Shown here in pieces: positions 966 to 48,828 of a stretch of 64,000 nt of DNA; the stretch's first letter is position 1; every line of letters begins with the position of its first letter. Position numbers and translations under genes: made by a program. The notes below the pieces were generated by a model. It saw nothing but the letters and a program-made list of their open reading frames with translations. It was not told the DNA's origin and made no database searches. Origin of the DNA: Labia minor (Eukaryota > Arthropoda > Insecta > Dermaptera > Spongiphoridae); NCBI GenBank assembly GCA_963082975.1, contig OY720344.1:35208033-35272032 (forward strand), given 5' to 3'.

Positions 966-1206
966 GTGAAATAAAATAAAATTATTTCATTCGAATAAAT
1001 AATTTACTTGTTTATTAAATTTAAAAATAACATTTATAGGCATTTTAATATATAAAATAATTTTTTTTTTAACATATTTTATATTTTTCTCCAAATTGAA
1101 TAATAATATTAATAATAATGTATATTTACGTTTATTTATTATTCTAATTTAATTTTCGAATTTCTATATTCTCGAATATATTTATTTTTAATTTTTTTTA
1201 TTGTAG

Positions 1207-1484
1207 GTATCACATCCCCTAGTCACTCTCTGATCAACACAACCAGTACCCAATCCATTCTCGATGGAGCAAAAATCTATTCATCTGGGCCGCTTTTGAC
1301 CCCAACTCCCACTGTACCTGCTGGTCCCGTTTGGCCAGTAAAACATGCAGCGCTTATTGAAGGTGATGTGATCCTCGGAGGGCTGATGATGATTCATGAG
1401 AGAGAGGATTCGATCACCTGCGGTCCTGTGATGCCCCAAGGGGGCGTTCAAGCCCTCGAAGCCATGTTGTATACCCTGGATCAG
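1207..1484 (+). CDS. mtt: Metabotropic glutamate receptor-like (mangetout type), coding exon 2: start of ligand-binding domain
   Basis: The acceptor TTGTAG precedes 1207 and the donor CAG/GTAAAT follows 1484. Two bases complete the Gly codon split at 965, and the exon then reads 92 full codons, ending in phase 0. The second half contains the motifs GDVILGGLMMIHERED and CGPVMPQGGVQALEAMLYTL. These match the first strand-helix unit of the class C venus-flytrap domain, where metabotropic receptors have GD-x-x-LGGLFPVH and a Cys followed by G-x-Q-x-x-EAM. The ITCGPVMPQGG wording is, from memory, that of the insect mangetout/DmXR receptor rather than the classic mGluR. The first ~40 residues are a variable Ser/Thr/Pro-rich linker. 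The codons are GC-richer than the surrounding introns, as expected for a conserved exon. Confidence 0.88.
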
Positions 1485-3126
1485 GTAAATATTGACAAAG
1501 TTATTAACAATTGGTTCATTATATTCCATTCAATTAGGAATTATCTATTTATAGTAATTAAAACTTCAGTAAACTGTCTTAGAAGTAATTAATTCTAGAA
1601 ACTGAATTCGCATATTGTTATACATTATAATGTAAACAATACTTATCACTTAGCATCTCTTTTGGAAAACTTTTACAAACAATTACTTAAATCTAAAATT
1701 AAACTTAAATGTGTCATTCAAATTAAATTATAGGTTTACTTTCGTTTTAGAAATTTCTCAATCTAATTAACTTTTAATTTAAAAATTTAATTAATTATAA
1801 TTAAATGTTTTTATTAAAAAAGAGCACTTCTCCCGACTTATGTATATGAATATCAACGATTAAAAAATAAAATTACTTCAATTTGACTATTACATTTATC
1901 TAATAAAATTTTTTATTTATTTTAAAGATAACTCTATATTAGAAATGAAGACTAAAAATAACATGCGGGCACCAGCTTAGAACTTAACCCTCTCGTTTCA
2001 TCTAAATTCAACTATCTAATTTTTTATCCTAGCTCTCTGATTAAGACAATATACAATATATATATATAGTATATACCTACCTATAAATTTGATTTTTATG
2101 AAATTCCTTATAATCAAATTATGAAATTAATAGATTTCATAAGTTATGTAAACTAAAGTTATTCTTAAAAAATATAAAACTTATTTTATATTTAATTAGT
2201 GAAAAGGATTAACATAATCAAGACATAATAATTAAAAAAAAATTATTTTGTTTTATTGGACGTTTCGAATACTAAGCTTATTCTTTTTTAAGACTTGACG
2301 TCGACAAAACATTTATTTTATTAAAAAAATAAAATATTTATAATTTATGTTAAAAAATATTTTTATAATGTTTATAATTTAATAAATATTTTGTCGGCTA
2401 ACGTTATGTTTTTTTTTAATTCATTCTCGTAAACTAAAGCTGAACGTGTGCACTTGCGCTTAATTCATTACGCATTTATGGCATTAAATCCGTTGCACCA
2501 AATCTTCTCCCTAGACACTGAACTGGGTATGCATTCGATTACGATGGGTTACTTCTTATAGATAAGGAAAGGGCTACTAAATTAAGCACGGGACATGATT
2601 AGGTTTTCCTACTCTAGCAGTCTCCACCTAACGAAAGTAGTGGCCAATCCTACACTTCCCACTACTTATTTACTAAAAGCTCGTTTATATTTGATTGACC
2701 TTCCTACAAAAGAAAAAATATTCATTATTATTATTATTATTTTACAAAGAATTGTTTAAAATAAATAAAATCAATAGATCCCCGGCTTAAAGATTCACTG
2801 AATAATAGCATCTCAAATAGAATGAAATTTCTGTCCGTTTGATCGTGATTACGAGAATGAGAGGAAATTAATTAGATTATGATCTAATGGAAAAGTTTTT
2901 TCTTTGATTCGTGATACTCTATTCAATTATCATCCTGAGTGATATCGTTTAAAGCGATGCAATCAAGGATAAGTAATTGATTGAAATTTATTCAAATGAA
3001 TTGTATCAATTGATCCAACAGAATAATTAAATTTATCTCCCGTTGCATGTATATGTATATTTGTATATTTAAGAATTTAATATGAATATAAAATTATAAA
3101 TTATGATAAAATAATATCCACTATAG
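1485..3126. other. Intron 2, first part: mostly AT-rich DNA
   Basis: No ORF, repeat copy or RNA gene was recognised. Two patches, about 2425-2700 and 2820-3010, have more balanced composition and higher complexity than their surroundings but match nothing known to me. Confidence 0.5.
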
Positions 3127-8480: not shown

Positions 8481-9120
8481 ATAAGTTGACCCGTGGCCAG
8501 GTCCGAACCGACCGACGGTTTGAAGTAAATTAATTAGCGGCTACAGAAACAATTTCACATAATTTTAATATATCTATTAATGTAATAAAAAACAGATATG
8601 GATACATAAATAATAAATATAAACATTTTTAATTTTATTTTATTTATAATATATATGCAAGACCAGGTTGTGACGTCATGAATGGCTGGATGACGTCATA
8701 TAATTTTAAATCAAAAAAAAACTAATAAATATGATTTTCCCGAGGATAAAACCAATACAAAGTGAATGATTTGTGGTGATATATAAAAAAATCTCCTCAT
8801 GTGAAATTTTGTGTGAAAATAACCCTTCCCTTATTATCGTCGATCGCTAATACTACCACTTCCGGTTTCCGGATTTGCACCAAAAGTTGATCAATTCATC
8901 CCACTGATGCATTAAGTAAATATACCAAATTTCATCAAAATCGGTTGGGCCGTTCAGGCTGTACACATCTACGGACAGACGGACGGACGGACGGACGGAC
9001 ATCATGCTAAAAATACTTTTTTCTGTTAAGAAAATGCATGATTCGTGGAGATATGTAAAAATCTCCACATGTGAAATTTGGTGTGAAAACAATACCTCCA
9101 TTACTATCGTCGGTCGGTAA
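8481..9120 (+). repeat. R1 interspersed repeat (DINE-1/Helentron-like), copy A, full length
   Basis: R1 starts ATAAGTTGACC-(C/T)-GTGGCCAGG with CCGACCGACGG close to its start, and ends ATCGTCGGTCGGTAA. The subterminal ACCGACCGACG and CGTCGGTCGGT are inverted repeats. Inside are paired TGACGTCAT motifs, a CACTTCCGGTTTCCGG block, and ACCAAATTTCATCAAAATCG before a (GGAC)n microsatellite. An 80-bp segment occurs twice (CGTGGTGATAT... and CGTGGAGATAT...). The (GTCY)n tract plus subterminal inverted repeats is the described layout of Drosophila DINE-1/HINE elements. No transposase is encoded; the SVRPSVR-type reading frames are only translated microsatellite. Confidence 0.82.
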
Positions 9121-18731: not shown

Positions 18732-19041
18732 TGAGGAGATTTTTTTATATATCACCACGAATCATGCACTTTGTATTGGTTTTATCCTCGAGAAAAATCA
18801 TATTTATTAGTTTTTTCTTAATTTAAAATTATATGACGTCATCCAACCATTCATGACGTCACAGCCTGGTCTTACATATATATTATAAATAAAATAAAAT
18901 TAAAAATATTTATGTTATATCCAAATCTGTTTTTTATTAAATTAATAGATATATTAAAATTATTTGAAATTGTTTCTGTAGCTGGAAATTAATTTACTTC
19001 AAACCGTCGGTCGTTTCGGACCTGGCCACAGGTCAACTTAT
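18732..19041 (-). repeat. R1 interspersed repeat, copy C, truncated
   Basis: The - strand R1 copy keeps the 5' end (complement ends GGCCACAGGTCAACTTAT) and the TGACGTCA pair (GACGTCATCCAACCATTCA...). It breaks off at ATGAGGAGAT, inside the first 80-bp segment. The microsatellite core and the 3' end are missing. Confidence 0.78.
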
Positions 19042-28200: not shown

Positions 28201-28334
28201 AATCATTTTGGTATTAATAATTATTTATTAAATTATATCCCATTATCCTTTAATCCTATTTCAAAGTTAAAGTTATTTTGTATATTTAGGTCTATATTTT
28301 TAAATTTTTATTTGTATAAAGAATTTACTAAGTT
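25300..28334. other. AT-rich intronic DNA, 3 kb
   Basis: Long AT-rich stretch with homopolymers. Slightly more complex patches lie at 26640-26830 and 27060-27250, but no gene, RNA or repeat could be identified. Confidence 0.4.
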
Positions 28335-29236
28335 TGTAAAGAGACTAATCGAGCCAAACGTTGGGCTGCCACTTTGTAAGGAGGACCGTTTCAAGTTGGG
28401 GTCACTTTGTAGACGATCCTCTTACGTTGGGTGCCAATTTATAAGGGGATCTAATTATTGGGCACTTGTAATGACCCACGATGACCGTGAATTGTTAATT
28501 ATGTTAAGTTAATGATGGGCGCCAACTTTGGATATCCCAAAGTATAAAAGTGTGTTGAAAAATTAAGGGAAAAGGGAAAACACAATAATAATGTTCACAT
28601 TAATTTACTTTAATTAAGTAGATAAAATTAACAAATTAAATATACAAATTTTAAATAGAAAAAAATAAGAAAATGTAATTCACTATTGTCACTGGAATTA
28701 GCAGAAATAATTATCACAGGGGGTGATGATAAGGATTATACACAAATAATTATATCACGGGACGTGATAAGTATAGGTTATATCAGGATGATATCACTTG
28801 TTCGACTGTATCACAGGGTGTGATAAAAATGATTATATACAAAATAATTATATCACGGGACGTGATAAATACCAGGTCATATCGGGATGATATCACTAGT
28901 TAAACTGTATCACAGGGTGTGATGATAAAAATGATTATATACAAAATAATTATATCACGGGACGTGATAAATACAGGTCATATCAGGATGATATCACTTG
29001 TTCCACTGTCCATTCTCAACTGTCTAAAAATATTAAAACTTGGAGGGATGGTTCCTCCCCTTATGTGAAATATAATATCTATATATATATTACATTTTAA
29101 GAATAATGCGACCAAATAACTTTGTTAATAAAAAAAAAAGGGAATAGAAAAACAAAATAAACTAAAAAATAGATAAACAAAATAAAATGTATAATAAAAA
29201 AAAATAACTAAGAATATAAATACTTTGTCCGTTACA
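28335..29236 (-). repeat. 3' LTR of the gypsy-type element
   Basis: 902 bp, apparently identical to the 5' LTR. It contains three tandem palindrome-rich units of 97-101 bp (28712-29008) and a ladder of primer-site-like motifs at its U5 edge (28335-28530). On - it begins TGTAACGGACAAAG. Confidence 0.93.
28712..29008. repeat. Three tandem palindromic units inside the LTR
   Basis: Units of 97, 99 and 101 bp start at 28712, 28809 and 28908. Each carries TATCACAGGG-(T)GTGAT, then TATATCACGGGACGTGATAA, then a TATCAGGATGATATCAC-type motif (one unit has TATCGGG). That is three imperfect dyads built on TATCAC/GTGATA per unit. The same array is repeated in the other LTR at 32199-32495. Such clusters are candidate transcription-factor sites (inference). 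Confidence 0.88.
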
Positions 29237-29249
29237 TCCTCCCCCTCTG
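29237..29249 (-). other. Polypurine tract of the LTR element
   Basis: On the - strand AGAGGGGGAGGA ends exactly one base before or at TGTAAC of the 3' LTR, the position and composition expected of the plus-strand primer of LTR elements. Confidence 0.8.
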
Positions 29250-29280
29250 ATTCCGAGGTCTTTTGATTGAGGGATCAGCC

Positions 29281-31197
29281 CTAGGAACGGACAATTTTTG
29301 GCCTTCCTCGCTTACATAGAGGAACTACTGGAGTAGAACGCGTGTCGTGGCTTAGACGCAATGCTGATGTATGAGGGGGAACAAGTCCTTGAGTAAATAA
29401 ATGTTTTTGAGTTTGTGGTGGCTCCATAACTCCTGGTGGGCCCCGATGGGATGTCGGAGACCCCACCAGCTGTCTATATCGGACAGCAGGATCTTCTTTG
29501 CTGACTTTGGTACCGTCCATGGAATCGACGGCCCTTTGCAGCGCATTCAAACAACCGCCTGTGTTTATATCATGTCCAGCGTAAGGAGTTGGCTCTCCCC
29601 CTGGTTGAAAGACAGTTTCATGTTCTTTTAATAAATGGGCAAGTTTTATGTTCTGTTCCTCAGTTAGCTGAATAGTGTTTTCAACAACAGTATTATTTTC
29701 TTCAGTGGTGCAGAGATTTTCTCGAATAAATTTGTATTTTCTCTTAGGATAATTATGAAAATACCAGCGATTGTTTCGCATATCTAATACTAAACCTGCT
29801 TTTCTGAGGAAGTCAAGACCTAATAGTGATCTATTTCCACTAACATTGGGTAGGAATATCATTTCTATATGTATTATTTTATTTTTGATTTTTACAGGAA
29901 CTGTAGCTAATAACACGGAATGTATACGCTTTTTCCCGTCAGCTAAAGTTAAGGAAAGATTATCTACTTTAAAATGTTCTCCTCGTTGTCTTAAATAGCT
30001 GAGAAGACGCTGACCGCCAATAGAGCGAGTGGCCCCGCTGTCAACGCAAATAGAACCAGAAGCTTCATAGATGGAGGCTTCTATTAGAGCGAGTTTAGTA
30101 TCTCTATCTGTAGTAACGTTACACTGTAAGGCTTGTGCGTTGGTAATTTCCTGCTTCGGATTGCAAGTTAGACACCTAGGTTTGGTGACTCCTGGAGTTC
30201 CGCAGCCGTAGCAACGAAGTGTTGAAGAGTCAGTCTCTTCTTTTTGTTTTTCACGAGGTTGTGAGTTTCTAAAGGGTTTCCGATCATAATATTTCGATTT
30301 AGGGGGTTCGATAGATTTATTTGAAGGGATTGTTTTTGAAAATGGGGCCCTTAAGTTATCATAGGAGTCGAATTTTTCTGCGAGATCGAGGGGATCTACC
30401 AGTGTTTCCCAAGAGTCGAGGAAGTGATCTTTGCATTCGGATGAACACTTTCTCTTCATTTGATCAGCTAGGATCAAATTTTTAAGTTGATCAAAATTTT
30501 CAATTTTTAGATCGGACAGCCAGGCTTCTAGATAACCGCGTAGATTGAAGTAAAAATCTTTCCAAGTGTTTTCTGATGTCTTCTTGGAGGTGGAGAAAAG
30601 TTTTCTTATTTTATCCGTAGTTAATTTAAATCGGTGAAGTAGGAGCTTCTTAATATGTTGATAGTCTTGGGCGACTTCATTTGGTTCTCTAATTATTAGA
30701 GTGGTAATATCTGTGGGTAAGACCGAAATAAGATAAGTGACCCATGCATCCTCAGATATGCCAAGAAAATTCATTTGTCTTTCGAAAAGACGCAGATACG
30801 TATTAATATCGTCATCGTTAATTTTAAATAGAGGTAAGAATTTCAATATATCTACTTTCGGTTGAAGTGGGGTTGGTGATTCTACCTGGTTCACTACGGT
30901 TTGAATTCGGAGTTTCTCTAGTTCAAATTGTCTTTCCTTCTCCTTTTCTTCTCTTTCATCTTTCTCCCTTTCCCTCTCTCTTTCTTCTTTCTCCCTTTCC
31001 CTCTCTCTTTCTTCTTTTTCCTTCCTATCCTCTATGATGGTCATAAGTAATTCCCGTGTAAGGTCTTCATCATAATCAGGCAATGACGTGATGTCATTTT
31101 TTATATCGATCCTACGAGAATCTAAATTCATAACTATTCCTAATTCCTGTGCTAAAAGGATAAGATCCTCCTTTTTCCCTTTGCCGAAAAATGACAT
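29281..31197 (-). CDS. Gag-protease polyprotein of the gypsy-type LTR element
   Basis: 638 codons. About residues 57-98 form a highly charged Glu/Arg/Lys coiled coil. Residues 115-285 are a retrotransposon gag domain (DINTYLRLFERQMNFLGISE; QHIKKLLLHRFKLT; LADQMKRKC), like the SCAN-related gags of arthropod Ty3/gypsy elements. Residues 329-345 form a knuckle (CYGCGTPGVTKPRC). The protease starts at VDSGAT (D386) with the flap region LTLADG and the LLGLDFLRKAGL C-terminal motif. A GGEPTPYAGHDI-like stretch further on resembles the protease-RT linker of such elements. Retroelement fossil, although this frame looks intact. Virion-like particle assembly and maturation are the family roles. Confidence 0.9.
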   Translation of the reverse strand: MSFFGKGKKEDLILLAQELGIVMNLDSRRIDIKNDITSLPDYDEDLTRELLMTIIEDRKEKEEREREREKEEREREREKDEREEKEKERQFELEKLRIQTVVNQVESPTPLQPKVDILKFLPLFKINDDDINTYLRLFERQMNFLGISEDAWVTYLISVLPTDITTLIIREPNEVAQDYQHIKKLLLHRFKLTTDKIRKLFSTSKKTSENTWKDFYFNLRGYLEAWLSDLKIENFDQLKNLILADQMKRKCSSECKDHFLDSWETLVDPLDLAEKFDSYDNLRAPFSKTIPSNKSIEPPKSKYYDRKPFRNSQPREKQKEETDSSTLRCYGCGTPGVTKPRCLTCNPKQEITNAQALQCNVTTDRDTKLALIEASIYEASGSICVDSGATRSIGGQRLLSYLRQRGEHFKVDNLSLTLADGKKRIHSVLLATVPVKIKNKIIHIEMIFLPNVSGNRSLLGLDFLRKAGLVLDMRNNRWYFHNYPKRKYKFIRENLCTTEENNTVVENTIQLTEEQNIKLAHLLKEHETVFQPGGEPTPYAGHDINTGGCLNALQRAVDSMDGTKVSKEDPAVRYRQLVGSPTSHRGPPGVMEPPQTQKHLFTQGLVPPHTSALRLSHDTRSTPVVPLCKRGRPKIVRS

Positions 31198-31821
31198 TTT
31201 TAATAGGATAATTAAATTTAATGTTAACCAAAGAGAAAAAAAAATTAATTAATTAATCAAAATTAAAAGTTATTTAGTCGCGTACAATTGAATTATACAA
31301 TGTTTAATTATAATATAAGGTAATTGAAATATAATTTAAAATATATAAAAGTATTTAAATATTTGAAAATATAGTGATATTTTATCAATTTTATTAATTC
31401 ATTAATTTAAATATAATGTAGTAGAATAAAATTTAAAGTTTTTAAAAAAAAATTTTCAAATTAAACATATAAATTAATTAATTATAACTAATAATAATAT
31501 TAATATATTCAAACTATTTTTATTGAATTAGAATTAAATAGATAAATATTCTATTTGTTAGATAAATGTGAAAATTAAAAATAAAAAAAATAATTAACAA
31601 GTGTTAAATCTTATTATATGTATTAAACAAGAAGATATAATTTATTTAAATTTAAAGTATAAAAGTAAAAGTTTTAAATTTTTATTTTATTAATTAAATA
31701 TTAAATTGTACTATAAGTCCGTTGAGATGAAAAAATGATGATACTGCTCACCAAAGATGAATAATGTACTTTTCTCAGGAGCCGTGGTGTACTAATCGGG
31801 CCTCAGGTTGGGCTGCCACTT
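31198..31821 (-). other. LTR element leader with primer-binding-site region
   Basis: About 600 bp of AT-rich untranslated leader lie between the 5' LTR and gag. The primer-site candidate on - starts TGGCAGCCCAACC, two or three bases inside the LTR edge (about 31806-31818 on +). The tRNA it would match is not identified. Confidence 0.65.
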
Positions 31822-32723
31822 TGTAAAGAGACTAATCGAGCCAAACGTTGGGCTGCCACTTTGTAAGGAGGACCGTTTCAAGTTGGGGTCACTTTGTAGA
31901 CGATCCTCTTACGTTGGGTGCCAATTTATAAGGGGATCTAATTATTGGGCACTTGTAATGACCCACGATGACCGTGAATTGTTAATTATGTTAAGTTAAT
32001 GATGGGCGCCAACTTTGGATATCCCAAAGTATAAAAGTGTGTTGAAAAATTAAGGGAAAAGGGAAAACACAATAATAATGTTCACATTAATTTACTTTAA
32101 TTAAGTAGATAAAATTAACAAATTAAATATACAAATTTTAAATAGAAAAAAATAAGAAAATGTAATTCACTATTGTCACTGGAATTAGCAGAAATAATTA
32201 TCACAGGGGGTGATGATAAGGATTATACACAAATAATTATATCACGGGACGTGATAAGTATAGGTTATATCAGGATGATATCACTTGTTCGACTGTATCA
32301 CAGGGTGTGATAAAAATGATTATATACAAAATAATTATATCACGGGACGTGATAAATACCAGGTCATATCGGGATGATATCACTAGTTAAACTGTATCAC
32401 AGGGTGTGATGATAAAAATGATTATATACAAAATAATTATATCACGGGACGTGATAAATACAGGTCATATCAGGATGATATCACTTGTTCCACTGTCCAT
32501 TCTCAACTGTCTAAAAATATTAAAACTTGGAGGGATGGTTCCTCCCCTTATGTGAAATATAATATCTATATATATATTACATTTTAAGAATAATGCGACC
32601 AAATAACTTTGTTAATAAAAAAAAAAGGGAATAGAAAAACAAAATAAACTAAAAAATAGATAAACAAAATAAAATGTATAATAAAAAAAAATAACTAAGA
32701 ATATAAATACTTTGTCCGTTACA
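31822..32723 (-). repeat. 5' LTR of the gypsy-type element
   Basis: 902 bp, offset by 3487 bp from the 3' LTR and with no difference noticed. It carries the same three palindromic units (32199-32495) and the same U5-edge ladder of primer-site-like motifs (31847, 31882, 31913 and about 32001). Confidence 0.93.
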
Positions 32724-32727
32724 AGTT

Positions 32728-33364
32728 TTATAAATTAATCTCGTTTTATCACGTCTCTATTGTACCAATCAATAACACAAAAAAATGATATTTTTTTATT
32801 CTCATTGCCTTTTTGTGCTCAACTTTAATCCCAATATGTCGGTTACCATTAAAAAAAAAGTTAAAAATTAAAACCAACACAAAACATCGATAAAAAAAGT
32901 TTACAGATTTGAAATATTGTCAACCAATACTTATATATGTATATAATAAATATTGGATCATATTAGAGCTTTTACTTTGATTAGTTGAATACCATCTCTT
33001 TTTTTTTATATAAAAATGTTTTTATTTTATTTTTTCCTATAATCAAATTAGTTTTTATAATTATTTTGCCAATATAACATATTATTAAAAACAAATTTAA
33101 TAATAAAATGAAAAAATCAATTATTTATTAATTTAACCAAAATGATAATATGTATTTATTATGATAAATAAATTGTTCTAATAATTTAATTATTTTATCA
33201 AAAACGAGGAATGATAAAATCATTTAACGTTTTTTATTTGTTTTAGTTGAAGAATAAATAAATAAAGTGGTCTCAGGGGAAATTTGCATGGATGAATCAA
33301 CTGGCATATAAATGTATTCCTATTATATACATAACTAGAGAAATCGCAATATTGTGATATACTA
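32728..33364. other. AT-rich intronic DNA, nothing recognised
   Basis: Continues the host sequence interrupted by the LTR element; no feature is supported. Confidence 0.45.
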
Positions 33365-33923
33365 CACTGCTGGCCAAAAAAAGCGTAGCACTTATTTTTC
33401 TTTATAAATAATTAATAAAGTATAGTTACAATGGAATGAAATTGAATAAACTTTTAATATGATATTTTTTAATCTTTCTAACTAAGTCTGATAAAAATTT
33501 AAAACATTTTATTTAAAAATTACAATTAAAATAAAATACAAACGAATAATTTCATATTTATTGATTTTTGATGAAATCCGATATCTTTCTTATTCGAAGA
33601 ATCTGTTATACTAAGTGGCATAATTTTGATGTGTTTAGTAGAAAAGACACTCAAATAATGAATTTCAAGCATATTAACAAAAGAAAAACAGGAATTAAAA
33701 AAATATAATAAAGATATCAGATTTCATCAAAAATCAATAAATATGAAATTATTAATTGTAATTTCTAAATAAATTGTTTTAAATTTATATCAGATTTATT
33801 AAGAAAAGATAAAAAATATCATATTAGAAGTTTATTCAATTATTTCATTGCATTATATTTAATTCTAGTTTATTAATTATTTTTAAAGAAATCTAAGTGC
33901 TACGCTTTGTTTGGCAGGCAGCA
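33365..33923. mobile_element. Tc1/mariner-type MITE forming a long hairpin
   Basis: 559 bp flanked by TA. The left arm (33365 to about 33600) and right arm (about 33708 to 33923) are inverted copies over more than 200 bp with few differences. They start CACTGCTGGCCAAAAAAAGC and (complement) TGCTGCCTGCCAAACAAAGC, both followed by GTAGCACTTA. Shared inner landmarks are AATATGATATTTTTTA and TTTATTGATTTTTGATGAAATC. A 105-bp loop lies between. The termini resemble Tc1-like ends. No transposase is present. Confidence 0.85.
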
Positions 33924-36890
33924 TATATATATATATATTTATAATAATTATTTAACTTTGTACAAAAAAAATGTTTCCTTACTTCTTTCCTTTTTCTTAT
34001 TGATAGTTTTTATTTTAATTTATGAGTTTTGATTTATGTAGGTACTTACTACTTCTATGTTCACATTTATATTTAATTCATTATTAACTGAATATAGTGA
34101 TTATATATATATATATAGGTAAAATGATCAAGTTATCATTATAAATTCTTTTTTAATATAAATTCCAAGTAGAAATTAGTATTTTTGAAAGAGGTAAAAA
34201 GGAAAGTAATACCCTTGTAATTGTTATATTTTATTAAGAAACGATTTATTAAAATATGGTTTATGTTCACTAATAAGTTTTTTATGTCTTTCTATTATCA
34301 AATGATTTACAAACTGTAAGACAATTAAAAATAATATAAAGTATTTATTATCTTATTATAGTAAATATTGATTTGATTTTCTTGTCTATAAATTAAAACA
34401 CCGATTTATTCCATCTGATAAAGGAAATTAATTTCATTACCTTGGACTACGATAATTGGTATTTCATATTTTCACCATCATTCATATGTTAATTGCCTTT
34501 TATAACATCAATCACTGCATATATTTCACGATTCAAGCAGCCCCTCCAAATTTGCCTATATCCTTCTTTTACACAGTTTAATTTATTTTCTAATATAATT
34601 GAAAAAATAATCATCATCATCATTTAAATCCTAATTTAATGATAATAATTTAATGATGTCTAGTATCCCCTTACTAATAAAATATAAATAAAATTTACTA
34701 TTCTAAATGAATGTTATTAATGTTAGTTTTCTCCGTCTATGTTGATACTATAATATTTGATTTGGATAAGGAAAAAGGAATTCTAAATCTAAAATATTTG
34801 AACTATAATAAATCGCAATACGTGTACCACTGGAGCTGTCCGAGAAAATAAATGGCTTTTTTGTAAATGGTAAAAATTCTCGGGGAAATAGTATTGATTG
34901 GGGATTTCATTCAATGTTGACTAAATATTGACAAAATCAACCAACATGAGAACAAATCAACATTTCATAATAAACGATACAATCAGTATAAATGTGCTGC
35001 GAATTTTATGATATTAGTTAAATTATTTTTATTCTTTATCAGTCATATAGTAGAGATTTTGTAAAAATAAAAAAGTCCTATTCATTTTATAGAAATATAC
35101 ATATATATATTTATATAATTGGACCAGTTAGAAAGGTCTGTGATAAGTGATGCTTATTGCTTGAATGTTATTATCATGTCCATAACTTCATTTTATACTC
35201 GCTTCTGTTTAAATGAAAGGAAATGTCACTCTTAAATGATCATTAATGTCTTAGTCGTTTTTCATGACACACAACCAGGGTGTTAGACACTTTATTAAAT
35301 TAATAGGGATATAATCCAAATAACTCAAATCATCGAAGGATGGATGGATGAAGTAATTTAACTTAAAAGAAATTATGACGATTTTATAATGGCTCAATGT
35401 TTTCAACATAATATTATTTAAAATATAAAATAGCTTTAAATATTTTATAAGATATTTTAAAAATGAATTTTTTTTATACCTTTTTGAGATCTATACACAT
35501 TCTAATCGACCTTTGTATTTATTAGGATTAATTATTTAATATTAAAACTAATTGAAACTTAAGTTCGACGAATTAGGACAATAATCACTAAGCTACTACC
35601 ACCTGTGTATATTTTCGTTTTAATGATTAAATATTCAATTCAATGAATTTTACTTAAATACTTTATTTAAATATTAGATTATTAATTCGAGTATTGATTT
35701 ACTTAACTTTTGAAATTATTATTATATTAGTAACATTCTTAATATTATAATTATATTTAATTATTTAGTTTTTCTAAATCATTGCAATTATTTGTAAATA
35801 TATATATACATTTCTGTAAATCATATTTTTCACTCTTCTTTATAATTATTTTGAAAATATCATAGTAATTGCATAATTTCATTGCAATTTTACTCAAAAT
35901 TATTTATTTTTTATTAAAAAAATAAATAATATATTTGTTTATTTGTTCGTTTATTAAAATTCTAATAAGATATGATTCAAGAAATAAATAAACAAAGAAA
36001 ATAAGATAATTATAAGATTAAACAAAAGAAAAAAAAAATTGGAAGAGAAATCAATTTTCAAATTGCCTTTAGATAATTAATTGGGATTAAAGCTGAGAGA
36101 TCTATCCAAACCCATTTAAACATTATTTGAAATATAACAAAACTCATAAATTCCAATATGTATAAATTTCCACATATTAACATATTTAAATTAAACGTTG
36201 ACAAAAATGAAGTAATGGAATTTAAAAAAAAATATATAAACATACATAATTAATTAATATATATATATATATATATATAAATCCTAATATAATAACAAAA
36301 AATCTTTTAAAATAATTAAAATTAAAATCTCTGATATAAGAAATATTTAAATATATCTTAATTTATAATATTATATGTATATATATTTTATTTATATTCT
36401 CATTACTCTCCATCTTTGTTAAAGTCCTTTCTATTCAAATTATTTGTTTTATTTTAAAATAATATAATTTTTAAGATCAATGAGATAAAAATAAAAATAT
36501 ATACAATATAAAAGTAATATTTTATTTAATTAGTCGCATAATAAATATATAATTAATATAATTCTTTCTTTTTCAGGTAAGATACAATCCATCCAAATGT
36601 TTCATGGTTTAGCTTAATCGCAAGTAAGTATAAATTTGAAATATAAATGTTATTAAAAACTGATGAACATTTGTAAATTACCTAGTAAATTATACTTGTA
36701 TTCATTAGCAGGAGATAAATGGAATTCAACTTTTTAATTAGACCCATTGACGAATTTTTTCTATTTTAATAAATTAAATTCTAAATTTGACAATTTGTTT
36801 TTTTTTAATTATATTATTAATTCAGTATGGAGGATTAGTACTAATTGTACGAGAGTGTCATAGTATCTTCATCCATAATTTAACATAATT
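33924..36890. other. AT-rich intronic DNA, 3 kb
   Basis: No gene, repeat copy or RNA recognised. A splice-acceptor-like TTTTTCAG/GTAAG at about 36575 is not followed by an open conserved exon. A slightly complex patch lies at 35130-35300. Confidence 0.4.
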
Positions 36891-48199: not shown

Positions 48200-48828
48200 A
48201 TAAGTTGACCTGTGGCCAGGCGCAGAACCGACCGACGGTTTGAAGTAAATTAATTTCCAGCTACAGAAACAATTTCAAATAATTTTAATATATCTATTAA
48301 TGTAATAAAAAACAGATATGCATATAACATAAATATTTTTAATTTTATTTTATTTATAATATATATGTAAGACCAGGCTGTGACGTCATGAATGGCTGGA
48401 TGACGTCATATAATTTTAATTAAGAAAAAACTAATAAAGATTATTATTCTCGAGGATAAAACCAATACAAAGTGCATGATTCGTGGTGATATATAAAAAA
48501 ATCTCCTTATGTGAAATTTGATGCGAAAATAACCCTTCCCTTCCTATCGTCGATCGCTAATACTACCACTTCCGGTTTCCGGATTTGGACCAAAAGTTGA
48601 TCAATTCATTTTACTGACGCATTAAGTAAATATACCAAATTTCATCAAAATCCGTTGAGCCGTTTAAGCTGTACACATCTATACGGACGGACGGACGGAC
48701 GAACAGACATCATGCTAAAAATACTTTTTTCTGTTAAGAAAATGCATGATTCTTGGAGATATGTAAAAATCTCCACATGTGAAATTTGGTGTGAAAACTA
48801 TACCTCCCTTATTATCGTCGGTCGGTAA
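48200..48828 (+). repeat. R1 interspersed repeat, copy D, full length, inside the LINE
   Basis: It starts ATAAGTTGACCTGTGG and ends ATCGTCGGTCGGTAA, with (GGAC)n at about 48684-48700 and both 80-bp segments. LINE codons on each side (ATTGAAGAG and AATAAAATA) rejoin in frame with an overlap of at most two bases, so no sizeable target duplication was made. Confidence 0.85.

Follow-up and report, generated by a model that had tools for sequence, protein, structure and literature searches.

A ladder of primer-site motifs inside the LTR edge of a retrotransposon is consistent with outward growth of U5

Here, we describe an LTR retrotransposon in which the U5 end holds an array of motifs resembling the element's own primer-binding site (PBS). 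The array is real and unusual. All of its rungs (R1 to R5) are confined to the LTR side of the edge, the site in present use (R0) and the rungs R1, R3, and R5 resemble the primer site for tRNA-Lys1,2, and the terminus of the LTR is duplicated. On balance, we lean towards the explanation that the U5 end grew outward by capturing its own primer site, probably repeatedly. One outward step, in which R1 was engulfed and R0 came into use, almost surely took place. Several steps probably did, in an order and with a cause of duplication that we infer.

The window, by which we mean the whole stretch of 64,000 nucleotides analysed, is AT-rich and contains the complete element on its minus strand (28335-32723, 4,389 bp). 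Two direct LTRs bounded by TG...CA, a short target-site duplication, a primer site (R0) by the 5' LTR, and a polypurine tract by the 3' LTR identify it as an LTR retrotransposon:

28335..29236, minus strand: 3' LTR, 902 bp; its outer edge abuts host DNA
31822..32723, minus strand: 5' LTR, 902 bp, from alignment and TG...CA trim
28331..28334, no strand: target-site duplication AGTT, one side, read from the sequence
32724..32727, no strand: target-site duplication AGTT, other side, read from the sequence
29237..29248, minus strand: polypurine tract AGAGGGGGAGGA, adjoining the 3' LTR and just before it, read from the sequence

The LTR pair was aligned within the window (28333-29236 and 31820-32723), where 904 of 904 positions are identical, and the bounds listed above, of 902 bp each, follow from trimming both LTRs to TG...CA. 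With identical LTRs, an equal edge in both of them, and AGTT on each side, the edge of the element is exact and the element is young. Throughout the text, "U5" denotes the edge-proximal part of the LTR. The LTR also carries a 102-bp repeat three times in tandem (32199-32496, and again in the other LTR at 28712-29009; 89% matches). These repeats hold palindromes such as TATCACGTCCCGTGATA, with four of such kind counted in the 5' LTR, which we take to be GATA-like half sites, possibly forming an enhancer or insulator array.

The internal part of the element contains the following frame:

29281..31197, minus strand: single long frame from the first ATG, with a gag-like part carrying CxxC motifs and then an aspartic protease motif (DSGA)

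The frame comprises 655 aa from stop to stop, and its first ATG is located at 31197. Within the 2,585-bp internal part, Pfam scans covered this frame and two of its pieces. They returned a weak match to an aspartic protease family (PF13975) at E 2e-4, which is under the curated cut-off, and no match to reverse transcriptase or integrase. The part ahead of the protease motif appears gag-like in our interpretation, with no curated gag match; its Pfam comparison gave DUF7041 at a sub-threshold E of 0.04, and comparison with the sequences of solved structures gave weak matches only, the best (E 0.019) being to coiled-coil chimeras. The reverse transcriptase, RNase H, and integrase encoded by an autonomous element were not found in the scanned long frame, and with respect to the pol features of Ty3/gypsy (Metaviridae) elements, reverse transcriptase and integrase are absent from the scans and the protease match lies below its cut-off. 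The C-terminal part of the gag-protease frame shows an apparent run-up to reverse transcriptase, followed by unrelated-looking sequence, as if most of pol had been deleted. The element looks non-autonomous yet recently mobile, presumably via enzymes from elsewhere, since its LTRs are identical.

Other features were observed in the window. An open stretch at 1119-1589 (+) aligns with metabotropic glutamate receptors in their N-terminal part (best E 1.7e-9), which indicates that the DNA comes from an animal; Pfam gave no match over this stretch, which is the sole host gene identified in the window. A large imperfect palindrome at 33357-33930, which aligns with its own reverse complement over 618 positions at 73% identity, is perhaps a fold-back or MITE-like element. 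In addition, a dispersed repeat, TACAAAGTG.ATGATT.GTGGTGATATATA, occurs in at least three places (8756-8785 and 48466-48495 on the plus strand, 18746-18775 on the minus strand).

In the orientation of the element, the junction reads ...CTCTTTACA / AAG TGGCAGCCCAACCTGAGGCCCGATTAGT..., with the slash standing for the edge, and AAG (31819-31821) forms a 3-nt spacer between R0 and the LTR end. The 3' LTR, whose edge abuts host DNA, ends identically. In the scheme of reverse transcription, the sequence upstream of the primer gives rise to both LTRs. The edge shared by both LTRs therefore implies that the cycle producing this copy was primed at R0. The following sequences surround the edge:

31800..31818, minus strand: R0, the primer-binding site now in use, TGGCAGCCCAACCTGAGGC, beside the LTR edge
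31791..31830, minus strand: outer copy of the 40-bp unit (leader, PBS R0, and LTR end)
31831..31870, minus strand: inner copy of the 40-bp unit, entirely within the LTR, carrying R1

The two copies constitute a direct repeat, identical at 35 of 40 positions and differing at 31799, 31803, 31804, 31806, and 31827. Besides the PBS, the unit includes TTACA and AAG. An exact 20-mer, GTTGGGCTGCCACTTTGTAA, is present at 31807 and 31847, and again at 28360 in the other LTR; when up to three mismatches were allowed, no extra site was found in the window and none in 100 shuffles. The motif at 31807 straddles the edge, with the primer site outside and its TGTAA forming the LTR end. R0 and R1 are primer-site sequences lying in tandem, 40 bp apart, and two such sequences suffice for a tandem PBS. 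These results bear out the tandem 40-bp repeat across the LTR/primer-site edge reported in a preliminary description of this DNA, both in the exact 20-mer and in the 35/40 unit, and the weaker motifs that it quoted at 31882, 31913, and about 32001 are present as given there. The rungs inside the LTR are listed below:

31840-31858, minus strand: R1, primer-site motif, 16/18 identities with one inserted A; duplex -28.4 kcal/mol
31880..31900, minus strand: R2, decayed rung TCTACAAAGTGACCCCAACTT, score 23 to the R0 core; duplex -10.8 kcal/mol
31911..31932, minus strand: R3, rung CTTATAAATTGGCACCCAACGT with no inserted A, K12 score 19, second-best in 64 kb; duplex -21.3 kcal/mol
31942..31959, minus strand: R4, doubtful rung ATTACAAGTGCCCAATAA, score 14 to the R0 core; absent from the preliminary description
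31999..32020, minus strand: R5, innermost rung ATCCAAAGTTGGCGCCCATCAT with exact TGGCGCCCA, K12 score 18; duplex -19.4 kcal/mol

In plus-strand coordinates, the unit cores start at 31827 (R0), 31867 (R1), 31900 (R2), 31932 (R3), 31959 (R4), and 32020 (R5). Going outward from R5, successive cores are 61, 27, 32, 33, and 40 bp apart, with no constant period, and likeness to the R0 core declines inward only roughly (R1 40, R2 23, R3 24, R4 14, R5 20). The inserted A (TGGCaGCCC) and the leader sequence CGATTAGT are common to R0 and R1 and are both missing from R3 and R5, which retain the 3'-end-pairing TGGC.CCCA. R2 is identifiable as a unit (ACAAAGTGACCCCAAC) yet weak for tRNA pairing. The duplex of R4 reaches -12.1 kcal/mol for the motif and -15.5 kcal/mol in a 24-nt scan, weaker than a non-rung site (-18.1 kcal/mol). 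Judged by their sequences, R0, R1, R3, and R5 are clear primer-site motifs and R4 is a doubtful one.

Within 31863-31913, the spacer of R3 (CGTAAGAGGATCG) is nearly inverted with respect to the R2 end plus the R1 start (CGGTCCTCCTTAC), and the minimum-energy fold predicted for the region pairs these near-inverted stretches in a long stem. The predicted RNA fold of the region is ordinary (z -1.45, with 6 of 100 shuffles equally good), and a structured RNA element was rejected as an explanation of the array because the fold is unremarkable. TATAAA occurs within R3 (31925-31930, minus strand), the sole ATTAAA of the LTR is at 32101 (minus strand), and AATAAA is absent from the LTR. If TATAAA or ATTAAA is used, the transcript would end near or inside the ladder.

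The repeated motif had been described as primer-site-like, and it indeed resembles the tRNA-Lys1,2 primer site, an 18-mer (K18) printed in the relevant passages of PMC8775094 and PMC1084362. R0 and R1 each show 16/18 identities to this site, with one inserted A. In a free alignment, the 18-mer fits the R5 unit better elsewhere (12/18) than at the rung. The predicted duplex with the 3' end of tRNA-Lys1,2 amounts to -26.1 kcal/mol for R0, where a perfect site would give -41.8 kcal/mol; the engulfed R1 pairs slightly better than R0 (-28.4 kcal/mol). Duplex energies are a weak test, in that a non-rung site at 31952-31975 gives -18.1 kcal/mol, near R5 (-19.4 kcal/mol). Partial self-complementarity of the primer site also brings the opposite strand over the ladder region to as much as -20.9 kcal/mol.

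A PBS in use is rewritten from its tRNA in each cycle and should match that tRNA. R0 is imperfect with respect to tRNA-Lys1,2, though a used site should stay exact, and the primer may therefore be another tRNA. Either there is a host tRNA that fits R0, or rewriting is rare here, or mismatch-tolerant priming persists. According to the tRNA rules that we assume (C61, A58, C56), the frame of R0 without the insertion does not look tRNA-like; on these rules we set aside a tRNA matching, at its 3' end, R0 minus the extra A, and read that A as a probable insertion. ARAGORN detected no tRNA gene in the window and an Rfam scan of it gave nothing at gathering thresholds, by which a tRNA gene in the window was rejected as the source of the motif. 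In HIV-1, altered tRNAs that prime away from the PBS yield aberrant, non-productive products, according to the part of PMC3832253 that deals with them, and a cost may therefore attach to priming at two sites.

The motifs were then assessed statistically with K12 (TGGCGCCCAACG), the first 12 bases of the tRNA-Lys1,2 PBS, a query taken from outside the window. On both strands of the 64 kb, the top four distinct places are R1 (score 20), R3 (19), R5 (18), and R0 (18), all on the strand of the element, and the next place scores 16. The 3' LTR copies of R1, R3, and R5 score equal to the 5' LTR copies. The 200-bp U5 without R0 contains three K12 peaks of at least 18 (R1, R3, and R5). When U5 was subjected to 2,000 dinucleotide shuffles, 1,994 had no such peak, six had one, and none had two; with 2,000 shuffled queries, four gave one peak and none gave two. 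R2 and R4 fall below 14 with K12, and the opposite strand of U5 has one peak of 14. Scanning the 64 kb in 200-bp segments (both strands, steps of 100, n = 1,276) identified five segments with at least two K12 peaks of 16 or more, all five on the minus strand and over the two U5 ends.

Other queries were applied to the inner rungs and to the flanking regions. For R2-R5 alone (160 bp), the observed summed score was reached by none of 1,000 shuffles with K18 and by none of 1,000 with the R0 core; overlapping windows led K18 to count some rungs twice, in real and shuffled sequences alike. With the R0 core as the query on R1-R5, the count of five peaks was matched by 1 of 1,000 shuffles and the scores were not matched. 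Neither K18 nor the R0 core gives a peak that reaches 14 in the leader beyond R0 (594 bp), and the remaining LTR (693 bp) has zero K18 peaks and three weak R0-core peaks (14-15). On the opposite strand, R1 likewise gives a K18 score of 18 in each LTR. Chance as the source of the whole array was rejected by the K12 ranking, the shuffles, and the segment scan.

By definition, a PBS lies outside the LTR. The PBS copies inside the LTR therefore imply that the edge moved or that the site was copied inward, and R1 and R0 are most simply explained by a tandem duplication after which the outer PBS served for priming. Each step would involve the tandem duplication of a short stretch comprising the LTR terminus (TTACA, the integrase end), AAG, the PBS, and some leader. 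The primer tRNA would then begin minus-strand synthesis at the outer PBS copy, and the inner PBS would become part of U5 in both LTRs, because both derive from sequence upstream of the primer. As the terminus is duplicated too, the new edge would retain a functional integrase end usable by integrase, and the captured PBS copy would then be free to decay. The youngest step would be the one that left R1 inside and R0 outside (still 35/40), with R2-R5 being older and more decayed. The inserted A and CGATTAGT, common to R0 and R1 and missing in R3 and R5, fit a series in which R1 is the youngest. The duplications might be caused by misalignment at the second strand transfer, with the tRNA-copied PBS pairing with an imperfectly matching PBS; we speculate that the mismatch between R0 and the tRNA might favour such misaligned transfers and hence duplications.

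Several observations speak against serial growth, including the irregular spacing, the weakness of R2 and R4, the imperfection of R0, and the single copy of the family observed. The preliminary description had proposed that the edge grew outward more than once. One step of this proposal is supported by the presence of the terminus in the unit and of PBS-like copies inside the LTR, whereas its repetition is weakened by the decay of the inner motifs.

The array could alternatively have been built by tandem duplication in the leader and engulfed in one event, with the edge jumping from about R5 to R0. One edge move suffices for this explanation, HIV-1 provides a known case of a PBS duplicate lying downstream of the original, and no intermediate edge appears in the data. 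We nevertheless regard it as unlikely. R1 resembles R0 much more closely than any inner rung does, and neither the inserted A nor the leader end common to R0 and R1 occurs in R3 or R5, which suggests that the units formed at different times; moreover, the leader retains no unit. Ordinary tandem duplication in U5 by slippage would leave the edge unmoved and reduce the PBS likeness mostly to the self-likeness of a short repeat. The 102-bp repeat, present three times in the inner LTR, indicates that repeats do grow here, but the sequence that R3 and R5 match is an external one, the tRNA-Lys1,2 PBS, and the match of R5 includes TGGCGCCCA, at which R0 and R1 have the extra A. As PBS copies in the LTR require an edge move or an inward copy, slippage is distinctly improbable.

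Selection might instead have maintained the array, whatever its origin, as extra annealing sites for tRNA-Lys that serve primer loading or concentration, packaging, or folding. The pairing of R1 with tRNA-Lys1,2, at least as good as that of R0, and the retention of TGGC.CCCA in R3 and R5 are consistent with such a role. Good pairing is lost in R2 and R4, however, the leader side is without rungs, and the fold is as unremarkable as noted above (z -1.45, 6/100 shuffles as good), which together make this explanation very unlikely. That the 40-bp repeat alone is real and the weaker motifs are chance resemblances is hardly credible: R2 and R4 are indeed poor tRNA sites and the energy of R5 is close to that of a non-rung site, but none of 1,000 shuffles attained the summed score of R2-R5, and two of the four top K12 places in the 64 kb are R3 and R5.

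If outward growth by primer-site capture is the correct explanation, it could operate as a ratchet, in which duplication of terminus, PBS, and leader is followed by outer priming, so that U5 would carry a series of former primer sites ordered by age and the present edge would be merely the latest. We give this generalization an even chance. Under such a ratchet, priming at an engulfed site would re-shorten the LTR, producing stepped length classes within one family. Changes of LTR length and U5 over time are hard to study because LTRs vary greatly. If primer-site capture is general, many U5 regions would hold fossil primer sites that show past tRNAs and their order, LTR ends would become a readable record, and family assignment based on length would need a correction for stepped edges.

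Relatives were sought in viral, prokaryote, and plasmid collections, the first two of which possibly exclude records of the window's own genome. No relative of the gag-protease protein, queried as 566- and 499-aa stretches, appeared in the viral or prokaryote contigs, the exact 21-mer has no match in the viral contigs, and the plasmid collection contains no relative. A loose rung pattern gave four viral matches, in which the 60 bases on either side are not LTR-end-like. The exact Lys1,2 PBS gave 1 viral and 12 prokaryote matches, at loci of 58-74% GC, and the preceding 50 bases are not LTR-end-like.

Known systems show parts of what is found here. HIV-1 MAL carries a 23-nt insertion downstream of the PBS that arose from partial PBS duplication, and 14% of isolates carry that insertion, as given in the passage of PMC3185550 on this insertion. 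It provides a precedent for the first half-step, the duplication of the PBS, but it is a single partial copy in the leader, outside the LTR, and that passage of PMC3185550 does not mention a move of the edge. An HIV-1 with stable dual PBSs (Li et al. 1997, Virology 238:273, cited in PMC11181671) is, by its title, similar to the present element in that two primer sites are kept through replication; by the same title, two different tRNAs are involved there, whereas here the copies resemble the site of one tRNA and lie inside the LTR. In simian endogenous retroviruses, the PBS varies between tRNA-Lys1,2 and Lys3 (PMC8775094, in its section on primer sites). These elements share the evolution of the PBS and the same Lys1,2 PBS with our case, but in the account of that section the site is replaced in place and not captured into U5. 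Tandem repeats are also present in U3 of LTRs (PMC3601003, in the portion concerned with them), which resembles the present case as repeat growth within an LTR, and the present element has such a repeat too. The U3 repeats can act in transcription, according to the same portion of PMC3601003, while the ladder is instead located at the U5 edge and made of primer-site units. Among the matches listed, mainly from open-access literature, there is no account of a multi-rung primer-site ladder inside U5 or of an LTR edge growing serially in this way, while duplicated primer sites are already known from HIV-1.
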